Below are positions 20,033 through 22,771 of a DNA stretch of 64,000 bases, piece by piece (positions within the stretch are counted from its first letter, which is position 1; each line of letters starts with the position of its first letter). The position numbers and the translations under genes are program-made. The stretch covers positions 2,876,001 to 2,940,000 of the forward strand of contig NC_134686.1 in the NCBI RefSeq assembly GCF_024713945.1, read 5' to 3'. The DNA is from Dermatophagoides farinae (taxonomy: Eukaryota; Arthropoda; Arachnida; Sarcoptiformes; Pyroglyphidae). Below the pieces are notes generated by a model. That model saw only the letters and a program-made list of their open reading frames with translations, was not told the DNA's origin and did no database searches.

Positions 20033-22107
20033 TCATGATGATGCATCACTTATTTTCTGTCTCAGCTGCTTATTTTCCAAACGAATCTGTTCAAGATCGG
20101 CATTGATTCTGGTCAGATTTGCACTTGTTTTTCGATTATTTTCACTTTCAATCTATTTATTTATTTAACAGAATGAAAAAAATGGAATCAATTAGCAAAT
20201 ATGAAAAATTAATGGACTGGAATACAAAAAAAAAATTACCATTTCTTCTAGTTTACGAATCTCACGAAGATGAACACCAATTTCAGTGATAGCTTGTAAT
20301 AATTCAGTGAATGATGATTGTAATAGGGCTAATGATTTATAACAATTACGATTCCATTCATTCTGGCGAGCTTCATGAAACAATGTCTCATCGGCAATGG
20401 CAAAACTTCGTTCGATTTTTCCATTCAAATTATTTATATCTTTTTGAACGGCTTTCATTTCGGATACAACTTTGAGCGTTTCATCATTCTGTTTCTTAAC
20501 ATTCTGTATGATTTCGATTATACGACGTGTATATGATCCACGACTGGGTGGCCATTGTTGTGGCTGTCGTGATTCCAATTCCTTAACCAATGATTCTTTA
20601 GCCTGAATTTCTTTTAGTTTCGATGCAATAGCTTTCTTCATAGTGTTAATCATACGAATTTTTTCAATTTGTGCTTCATTCTGAGCTGTATTTTGAAGTT
20701 TTTTTGTACGCAATTTTTCTAGCAAATCTTTTTGCATTTCATCCCATGCAATGGCAATCTCTTCAATGGAATCTTTCATCGTCGTAATGCTATTTTCAAG
20801 CTAAAAAGATTTTTTAATCAGAAATTTTAATGATTTTAATGAAAAATAAAATACCTCGTCTTTGGATCTAAACGATGCTTCGAATAGTTTATACTTTTCC
20901 TGATATTCCTTTTCCAATCGGATCAATTCATTTTCATTCATTTTGCATTGATGGATTTCTGAATCACATTCATACAATTCTTGCCGCAGTTTATCGAGAA
21001 TAATCTGTTGATTTGTTTTTCGTTCAATTTGGTCGGTCGCTGGATTCGCTGATAGCTGTTCATTTGACTCGACATTACCACCAACATTCATCAATGAAGG
21101 TATAGTAGAATTGACATAATTGGTCGATTGTTCACCACCACCATGATAAACGATGGCATTCGTTAGTTTCGATTCACACAATGTCTTGAAATAATGACTC
21201 ATATAATCGACTTGTCGATTTTTATTATTATCGTCATCATCATCAGCAGTGTTGCCTTTCCAAAAATGATTATTCCATTCAAGAATGTCGATAATCGTTG
21301 ACGGAATAATCGGCATTTTTCCTTTATTAAGATTAATTCGGCAATATTCAGCCAATGGACTATTGGAATTACTGGACAAAAATGACTTTAATGAATAATT
21401 GTTCAGATTATACATTCCATAAATTGAATTTGGACTAGTTATGGACGCATAATAATCATGATAATCACTATCGGGACAATATTTACTCTCATCATCATCG
21501 TCATCAATATAATCAGAGCTATAAGGAATCCATACAGTTGATGGCCGGGAATGTTTCAATCTTCGAATGATATCATATGGTCTGATTGACCAACCAGTAG
21601 CAGATGGATGATCAGGAGATGATGATTTTTCATCTGAATCGGTGGAAATTTGTTCAACTAGATACAATAAAAGTCGGCGAATTTCATGTTCATTACTGTA
21701 AAGAAATGTTTGATAGCCAATATCAGATTTGTATCCAATATTCTGTGTATGGATCGAATGTCTGGATCAAATTCAATATCGGAACAACAATATAATAATA
21801 CCTGTATACAGGTGGACAATTGATTAGCTAGTTTATATTTAATGGACATGTTCATCGTCGAATTGATTGCCGATGGATCTGGTATCAATGAATCTACAGC
21901 ATCATCATTGATTTGAATTCGTCGTAAACAAATGGCAACACATTTCATGATCTGATATGAATCCATTGAAACGATACCATGAATGTTTTCATCATCTAAA
22001 TCACTGAATAAAAGATTTTAATAAAAAAACAATCAAAAAATTTTTTCGAAAACTTACCATCCAATTTCTCGAAGCTGTGAGATAAGAATTGAATCGACTT
22101 CTTCCAT
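20033..22107 (-). CDS. CCDC22: CCDC22, coiled-coil subunit of the Commander/CCC complex
   Basis: Five exons in phase: 22058-22107, 21802-22003, 20855-21742, 20240-20800, 20033-20152 (606 residues; human 627). The first exon gives MEEVDSILISQLREIG, close to the start of vertebrate CCDC22. The next supply the N-terminal calponin-homology-like fold, including the LGYQ-type segment GYQTFLYSNEHEIRRLLLYL. A serine/asparagine-rich linker follows. The C-terminal half is coiled coil, with a strongly matching block: RGSYTRRIIEIIQNVKKQ, then KDINNLNGKIERSFAIADE and LREIRKLEEM. CCDC22 pairs with CCDC93 in the CCC complex, which with retriever recycles membrane cargo from endosomes; it also touches cullin-ligase/NF-kB regulation. 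The last exon contributes the terminal helix ending QLRQKISDASSS. The small first exon fixes the start codon. Confidence 0.93.
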
Positions 22108-22310
22108 TTTTTCTGGTCCAAAAAATTAACTTTTGTCGATTATTAAAAAACATATGATCCAATAAGACTTTATTGCGCGTGTGTCAATTTCGCAGGTTGT
22201 TTTGCTGGTTATCCATAGCGTTGAAATTTGGATCATGTGCTAAATCACGCAACAACGAGTGGGTTTAGTCAAAATGTGCAAAATCCCTCGGAGTGCGAAA
22301 TCCCTGGAAA

Positions 22311-22410
22311 TCCTCGTTCGTATAGTGGTGAGTATATCCGCCTGTCAAATAGTAGGAAAAAAGGGTAAAACAGTGCGCGGAAGACACGGGTTCGATTCCC
22401 GTACGGGGAG
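22311..22410 (+). tRNA. tRNA-Asp (GTC) with a 28-nt intron
   Basis: The 72-nt mature cloverleaf folds fully. The acceptor stem TCCTCGT pairs with ACGGGGA and the discriminator is G. The D-arm is GTATAGTGGTGAGTAT, the anticodon stem TCCGC/GCGGA, and the loop C-T-GTC-A-C. The T-arm is ACGGG-TTCGATT-CCCGT. An insertion of 28 nt (22348-22375) separates position 37 (A) from position 38 (C), the standard site of nuclear tRNA introns. A-box (TAGTGGTGAGT) and B-box (GGTTCGATTCC) are intact and a T7 run at 22418-22424 can end Pol III transcription. The anticodon GUC could pair by wobble with GGU inside the intron. Both stems are sound, so I read it as a working gene. Confidence 0.9.
22348..22375 (+). 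other. tRNA-Asp intron
   Basis: 28 nt between positions 37 and 38 of the tRNA. Its removal restores a canonical seven-base anticodon loop. The length is typical for protein-spliced nuclear tRNA introns. Confidence 0.85.
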
Positions 22411-22417
22411 GATTTAA

Positions 22418-22424
22418 TTTTTTT
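22418..22424 (+). terminator. Pol III terminator of tRNA-Asp
   Basis: Seven consecutive T on the sense strand, eight bases after the discriminator base. Confidence 0.85.
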
Positions 22425-22771
22425 CCGTGATATTACTGTAATTTTGGGGAAAAAGCAAAAATCTAATGGTTAGCACTAACCTTTTTGGGTTAGTACTAAC
22501 CCTAGTTTTTTTCTGTGCGGGGCTGACTAATTGTGACTGTCATCTATTTGATACAAAAGCTGCATCAACGCGCGAAGCTAAAAATAAATGTGAAAAATTC
22601 ATATCAAACATTAAATTTGGAGGACTAAACGGAAGAATTACTTTTTAATTTTTCATTTACCATCACTAAAATTACAAATTTTTATTACACATACAATGAG
22701 AATAAATATCAAACATTTAATTTGCAGGAAAATAAAATATTAAACTGGACATTTCTATTATATATTGATCA
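22425..22771. other. short spacer between tRNA-Asp and the HSF-domain gene
   Basis: It holds two neighbouring palindromes built on GGTTAG/CTAACC (22468-22481 imperfect; 22487-22502 perfect, 16 bp) and the 3' flank of the HSF-domain gene. A 60-codon frame at 22466-22648 overlaps the palindromes and is discussed under findings. Confidence 0.6.

Follow-up and report, generated by a model that had tools for sequence, protein, structure and literature searches.

The window analysed here is a 64,000-nucleotide stretch of C10, one of the ten large mite chromosomes (C1–C10) in a Dermatophagoides farinae assembly of 62,435,336 bases and 22 contigs. The forward strand of the window carries an intron-bearing tRNA-Asp(GTC) gene at 22311–22410, with 72 mature nucleotides and a 28-nt intron. 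The region was matched to RF00005 by cmscan with 49.9 bits (cut-off 29, E 1.1e-7), and ARAGORN with introns allowed placed a tRNA-Asp(gtc) interrupted by 28 nt at the identical coordinates. A purpose-written cloverleaf scanner found 0 mismatches across the four stems. Over the whole window, Rfam at the gathering threshold gave nothing besides this RF00005 match, and the scanner at its own threshold found no second tRNA on either strand. ARAGORN at its default setting reported no tRNA in the window because introns are excluded in that mode; this result is not counter-evidence to the gene.

Exon 1 (22311–22347, +) comprised positions 1–37, with the A-box region and the anticodon GTC. The single intron (22348–22375, +) was located at 37/38, one base 3' of the anticodon. 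Exon 2 (22376–22410, +) comprised positions 38–73, with the discriminator G73 and no encoded CCA. The B box GGTTCGATTCC was found at 22389–22399 (+; pattern match C10:2898389–2898399), and a T7 run resembling a Pol III terminator at 22418–22424 (+). The features of a functional gene were all present: a covariance score above the cut-off, intact stems, A and B boxes, and a T run. An earlier note, made from the sequence alone, had described the locus as nuclear, transcribed by Pol III and encoding tRNA-Asp(GTC), with a canonical 28-nt intron at 37/38, and its coordinates, strand and isotype were confirmed by cmscan, ARAGORN and the scanner. Its description of the cloverleaf, Pol III boxes and terminator as intact agreed with the mismatch-free stems, the B box and the T7 run, and the covariance score that it proposed as a pseudogene test was well above the cut-off.

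A group I or group II self-splicing intron, whose catalytic core takes up hundreds of bases, was ruled out, since the intron is only 28 nt long and the window had no further Rfam match at the gathering threshold. A split or permuted tRNA gene was also ruled out, as both exons lie in order inside 100 bp. A short distance downstream of the gene, at 22469–22500 of the window, an inverted repeat of 13 pairs was observed (GTTAGTACTAACC...GGTTAGTGCTAAC).

tRNA introns on C1–C10

The tRNA genes of C1–C10 were collected from an RF00005 search, from B-box patterns and from the loci fetched around them, and one scanner parsed all of them. The RF00005 search of the assembly (63 of 2453 candidates scored) gave 62 matches, 25 of which were on C1–C10. 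The B-box pattern GGTTCGANTCC gave 111 matches, with every C1–C10 match inspected and fetched, and GGTTCRANCCC gave 41, with every C1–C10 match fetched. Pattern GGTTCAANTCC gave 106 matches, and 30 of the 97 C1–C10 matches listed were fetched; the loci of GGATCGAWDCC (148 matches) lie outside the census. Five of the 47 scanner rows were removed; in each, an intron longer than 190 nt resulted from pairing the 5' half of one gene with a 3' copy lying downstream. Three genes (Leu TAA and two tandem Gly genes) were added after the scanner run, and the boundaries of Lys(TTT) were revised to give a variable loop of 5 nt, base -3 being G under both cuts. A covariance model (R1) trained on the mature sequences of 20 mite tRNAs recovered the genes in the 32 loci supplied to it, which included most of its training set.

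In this partial census, an intron at 37/38 was present in 40 of the 45 tRNA genes found on C1–C10, or about nine in ten. The intron-bearing set represented 27 anticodons and 14 amino acids: Ala, Arg (4 anticodons), Asp, Cys, Gln, Glu (2), Gly (2), Ile, Leu (5), Lys (2), Met, Phe, Ser (4), and Thr. The five intronless genes were Asn(GTT) (two), Pro(TGG) (two), and Val(TAC). A mixed intron state was seen within none of the 30 anticodons found. Between 34 and about 590 bases of upstream flank were fetched, and these counts may therefore miss genes whose introns are longer, and Tyr and several other anticodons are outside the census, which is uninformative on them. With the BUSCO value of 92.1% given in a passage of PMC11074847, tRNA genes may also be missing from the assembly itself.

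DNA searches added three further families. For the initiator Met, exon 1 began at C8:1069945 and exon 2 was at C8:1070050–1070085, giving an intron of about 69 nt by coordinates only. The tRNA queries also gave two His exon-1 matches stopping at base 37, and Trp exon-2 matches of which two begin exactly at base 38 and one a base earlier. These coordinates alone suggest that the initiator Met, His and Trp genes also bear introns.

The earlier note had offered two alternatives, namely that the lineage gained introns in extra tRNA families or that this was one odd locus. The first was strongly supported by the 40 of 45 genes, and the second was contradicted by them. As the best explanation as a whole, the Asp intron is, with high confidence, an instance of a nearly universal presence of tRNA introns in D. 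farinae.

Exons and introns differed greatly in their conservation. Among 22 pairs of paralogs with the same anticodon, 21 had identical exons and one had exons of 98.8% identity; the introns of these pairs were 16–100% identical and differed in 18 of the 22. Identical exons with diverged introns form the pattern that would be expected if the ribosome sees exons only. Three Glu(TTC) genes that encode the same mature tRNA had introns of 31 nt (C9:1903770), 23 nt (C8:3689601) and 140 nt (C9:1957874), and these introns were mutually 16–48% identical in global alignment. Such unlike introns between identical exons suggest that introns were gained repeatedly or replaced quickly, and the introns may have originated by lineage-specific spread and turnover.

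The hexamer CCGGAA, which we take to be an ETS-type motif, occurred 13 times in 1.9 kb of introns against 0.6 expected, about 20-fold (one intron per anticodon). Its density in the 200-nt tRNA flanks was 0.54 and 0.63 per kb against a background of 0.31–0.36, less than a 2-fold difference. Forms resembling ACCGGAAGT, of the same type, share this enrichment in the tRNA introns on C1–C10. The enrichment within introns and hardly in the flanks would fit another explanation, in which the introns are real and are retained chiefly for a job of the excised intron as a circular, antisense or regulatory RNA, rather than simply being tolerated. The lengths agree with it too, as four of the 37 distinct introns (140–174 nt) exceed the eukaryotic range of 6–133 nt given in the part of PMC4090602 cited here. 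However, CCGGAA was confined to 8 of 27 introns (one per anticodon), and the Glu(TTC) genes combine identical exons with introns unlike in both length and sequence. Retention for such a job is unlikely.

Copies of the Asp gene and contigs C11–C22

The C10 gene was apparently the sole complete Asp gene on C1–C10. A DNA search with the gene and its flanks (4 of 4 candidates scored) found no second complete Asp gene there, and the other three matches were partial Asp copies on C6. Inspection of the C1–C10 matches of B-box pattern GGTTCGANTCC likewise gave no second complete Asp. With an arthropod tRNA-Asp as query, the genes of contig C17 were recovered and no gene on C1–C10. The DNA search with 28 spliced tRNAs (40 of 55 candidates scored) returned no row for Asp, Gly(GCC) or Cys, for which genes exist; being blind even to the Asp exons of the window, that search leaves room for further intron-bearing Asp copies.

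The block 21971–22380 (+) aligned with C6 near 1161.6 kb at 91.7% identity (411 columns); the Asp copy at that place is cut short beyond its anticodon arm. For the remaining 3' portion of the gene, the C6 match was near 1125.6 kb. A downstream piece, 22581–22634 (+), was 90.7% identical to C6 near 1125.5 kb; there it borders a lone tRNA-Asp 3' part, which does not accompany it in the window. Truncated Asp copies were located on C6 near 1161630, 1162016, 1125593, and 1125441. The three copies that reach the anticodon arm all carried the same intron as the C10 gene, and the intron thus predates the duplication. The Asp 5' and 3' parts on C6 were considered as a split tRNA and rejected, because their overlap spans the whole anticodon arm and the intron. 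Given this overlap and the existing complete gene, the C6 parts were read as duplication debris.

Two intronless Asp genes were found on C17. They share one sequence, which was identical to the mite's tRNA-Asp at 59 of 72 positions. The earlier note had held that the C10 gene would be a dead copy if all other Asp genes lacked the intron and the locus gave no spliced reads: on C1–C10 no other complete Asp was found in these searches, and the contig of the two C17 genes probably belongs to a second eukaryote. These two genes, together with the truncated copies on C6, could suggest that the C10 locus is a dead or unexpressed copy with a 28-nt insertion in its anticodon loop, the Asp-tRNA being supplied by another gene. 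However, the stems, boxes and terminator of the C10 gene are intact, the intron is older than the C6 duplication, and an intron of the same kind occurs in 40 of the 45 genes found on C1–C10. The C17 sequence, moreover, is rather distant and lies on contigs resembling a different organism. A dead copy is very improbable.

The contigs C11–C22 differed from C1–C10 in their tRNA genes. The fairer comparison between the two sets is given by the spans of all 62 RF00005 matches (63 of 2453 candidates scored): 20 of 25 matches on C1–C10 spanned 85–187 bases, and 37 of 37 on C11–C22 spanned at most 82. Among the tRNA sequences scanned on C11–C22 loci, 1 of 32 distinct ones had an intron (Tyr, 5 nt), a figure biased toward intronless genes because these loci were chosen for the best-scoring RF00005 matches and their neighbours. 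C11–C22 amount to 3.6 Mb, and their fetched loci were gene-dense with long uninterrupted ORFs. They encode their own tRNA endonuclease, their own RtcB, and a separate tRNA set. C11–C22 are probably a second, compact eukaryote inside the D. farinae assembly.

If they were instead part of the mite genome, for example as recently acquired or differently evolving DNA, the C10 Asp gene would be redundant with intronless genes. Their presence in the same assembly agrees with this, as does the authors' statement, in a passage of PMC11074847, that microbial DNA was removed. However, C1–C10 total 58.83 Mb, near the 58.77 Mb of an earlier 10-contig D. farinae assembly according to the same source, and the long ORFs, the additional endonuclease and RtcB, and the second, almost intronless tRNA set argue against it. 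Assignment of C11–C22 to the mite is very unlikely.

An open frame on C1 aligned with the Der f 2 PDB chain along 122 residues and differed from it at two of them, one being the residue at the exon edge. The same frame scored higher with Der f 2 (270.8 bits) than with Der p 2 (246.7 bits), in agreement with D. farinae as the organism.

Splice-site pairing and splicing machinery

In the minimum free energy (MFE) fold of the Asp precursor, C32-U33-G34-U35 (22342–22345, +) formed four Watson-Crick pairs out of four with the intron bases A(-6)C(-5)A(-4)G(-3) (22370–22373, +). The 3' splice site was inside a three-base bulge (-2, -1, 38). The earlier note had allowed pairing of the intron with the anticodon by wobble alone; the fold gave this all-Watson-Crick helix instead. 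The folding energy of the precursor was not distinguishable from that of shuffled sequences (z -0.08). Since the energy is unremarkable, support for the pairing comes from comparison across introns.

The pair of G(-3) with C32 corresponds to the A-I pair, which we take to be that of base 32 with intron base -3. It was possible in 36 of the 37 distinct mite introns on C1–C10, with 35 being Watson-Crick; the sole exception was the 12-nt intron of Arg(TCG). Random draws from interior intron bases gave a mean of 7.45 pairs, and the observed value was reached in 0 of 20,000. Paralogs are not independent in this statistic, and counted by anticodon the pair was still possible in 26 of 27. Covariation was seen at the two positions: C32 was accompanied by G at -3 in 32 of 33 introns, and T32 by A (three Leu introns) or G (Ala). 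Over the 37 introns, the helix of 32–35 with -6 to -3 had four pairable positions in 11, three in 17, and two in 9. PMC4090602 uses the term A-I pair for eukaryotic pre-tRNAs in the legend of its Figure 1. Pairing between the anticodon loop and the intron is not required for splicing in yeast and Xenopus extracts, according to a passage of the same paper; the Asp helix alone is thus no proof of splicing.

Genes for splicing enzymes were found on C1–C10. The tRNA endonuclease domain was present in two genes, a TSEN34-like one on C3 and a TSEN2-like one on C6, whose proteins had Sen34 chains and Sen2 chains, respectively, as best PDB matches. RtcB was represented on C1 by three matches that jointly cover model positions 1–426; a TGA inside one of them was taken as part of an mRNA intron. 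Sen2 and Sen34 are the catalytic subunits; for the structural subunit Sen54, the N-terminal domain scored 19.1 bits, below the cut-off of 24.

The anatomy of the locus, the comparative splice-site signature, the constraint on exons and introns, and the TSEN2, TSEN34 and RtcB genes were all observed, and the window gene is very probably a working, spliced nuclear tRNA-Asp(GUC) of D. farinae, apparently its only complete one. For its transcription, cleavage and ligation we infer the following course. Pol III would transcribe the gene from the internal A and B boxes and stop at the T7 run. In the pre-tRNA, the helix of 32–35 with -6 to -3 would leave the 5' (37|+1) and 3' (-1|38) splice sites unpaired. 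The TSEN endonuclease would cleave both sites, and an RtcB-type ligase would join the exons into the 72-nt tRNA-Asp.

By the features tested other than Sen54, the Asp intron belongs with the canonical eukaryotic tRNA introns. It shares with the 37/38 introns cut by TSEN/SEN the position, the A-I pair and the limit of one intron per gene, and the genome encodes TSEN2, TSEN34 and RtcB. The mite differs in isotypes, which include Asp, Glu, Gly, Lys, Met, Phe, and others, and in the 4 of 37 introns above the length range quoted from PMC4090602. What is unusual is the extent, an apparently intron-saturated animal tRNA set. To our knowledge, tRNA introns in the best-known animals are limited to a few families. 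Introns are present in 39 of 1068 tRNA genes of the sea urchin and in 132 of 143 of the yeast Cryptococcus neoformans, as stated in a passage of PMC4090602. With about nine in ten genes intron-bearing, the mite count is close to that of C. neoformans; however, one is a yeast and the other an animal, and the mite count is from a partial census. In the arthropod Daphnia pulex, tRNA-Sec has an intron at the canonical position, in a family previously without known eukaryotic introns, according to an excerpt of PMC5330540. The likeness is an arthropod with introns in a new family, whereas the mite has them in most families found; the same excerpt states that D. farinae is without selenoproteins and Sec machinery.

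The archaeal bulge-helix-bulge, as defined in a passage of PMC4090602, was also compared. The Asp precursor resembles it in two respects: its helix of 4 bp takes in the first two bases of the anticodon, and its 3' site has a bulge of 3 nt. The strict archaeal form has a 4-bp helix with two closed 3-nt bulges and was rejected, as the Asp MFE fold lacks the intron-side helix; in addition, all four pairs were possible in just 11 of the 37 introns. Among the open-licence papers searched, none on nuclear tRNA introns of mites was found, which does not prove novelty.

With introns so widespread, the tRNA families found, except Asn, Pro and Val(TAC), would need splicing before translation. The mite would then lend itself to asking why tRNA introns persist, by what route they spread, and to what extent TSEN/RtcB capacity limits growth. 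The Glu(TTC) trio makes intron turnover testable in close relatives. Annotation that excludes tRNA introns, of the default ARAGORN type, would overlook most of the mite tRNA set.

Junction-like copies, retroelements and lone tRNA parts

Three loci (C1:2272030, C5:173216, and C9:1310735) contained 45–47 nt identical to exon 2 of tRNA-Leu(AAG) followed by CCA. Two of the three matches stopped precisely at the splice junction (C38), and the third fell two bases short of it. In the C5 locus (C5:173000–173600), the Leu match, in reverse complement, adjoined a 177-bp TG...CA direct repeat, and the same repeat abutted the Leu match in the C1 locus (C1:2271800–2272400). C9:1310400–1311000 was a third retroelement-like place with a Leu(AAG) exon-2 match. 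From its position beside the 177-bp repeat, the match was interpreted as the primer-binding site of LTR retrotransposons, one of unusual length. The CCA was rejected as sole proof of a processed tRNA, because the flank of the Leu(AAG) gene itself reads CCA; for this reason the adjoining LTR is the better evidence.

These LTR retrotransposons might be primed by the unligated 3' exon of tRNA-Leu(AAG) freed by TSEN, with a 47-nt primer-binding site ending at base 38 as the consequence and nearly all translation dependent on splicing. This idea is tentative and more doubtful than not. An equally simple cause of the end at base 38 would be a mature-tRNA primer with a reverse-transcription stop at G37, which we assume to be methylated in the mature tRNA.

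Two partial copies of Ser(TGA), at C5:336710 and C4:4013116, contained five exon-1 bases and exon 2, joined without the intron. They matched different parents at the one base that separates the matched parts of the parents; they also share 65 bp at 90.8%, and so may represent a single repeat family instead of separate events. Chance or an altered intron end could account for the five exon-1 bases, and the two copies are modest evidence for fossils of processed tRNAs.

A decayed Arg(ACG) copy was located at C6:4318775–4318840, 127 nt downstream of the intron-bearing Arg(ACG) gene, with the intron precisely absent. Next to the other two copies of that gene, a search for its junction pattern found nothing. 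The decayed copy could have arisen by processing or be an older copy that had no intron. Taken as sequence matches, these candidate junction fossils agree with the predicted junction; none derives from Asp, and some may be read in other ways.

Lone tRNA 3' parts, consisting of the T arm and acceptor strand and in some cases a T run, were observed near 12 of 42 genes examined, with their ends 83–215 nt downstream. The genes concerned were Asn (two), Phe, Met (two), Pro (two), Ile (two), Lys(TTT) (two), and Arg(ACG). The lone parts were located at C7:4522495, C9:1725146, C1:3164798, C7:4636618, C7:4728140, C4:5144559, C4:5156236, C4:5985908, C4:6014033, and C6:3231012, among others. They may be remnants left by tandem duplication, or else additional B boxes.
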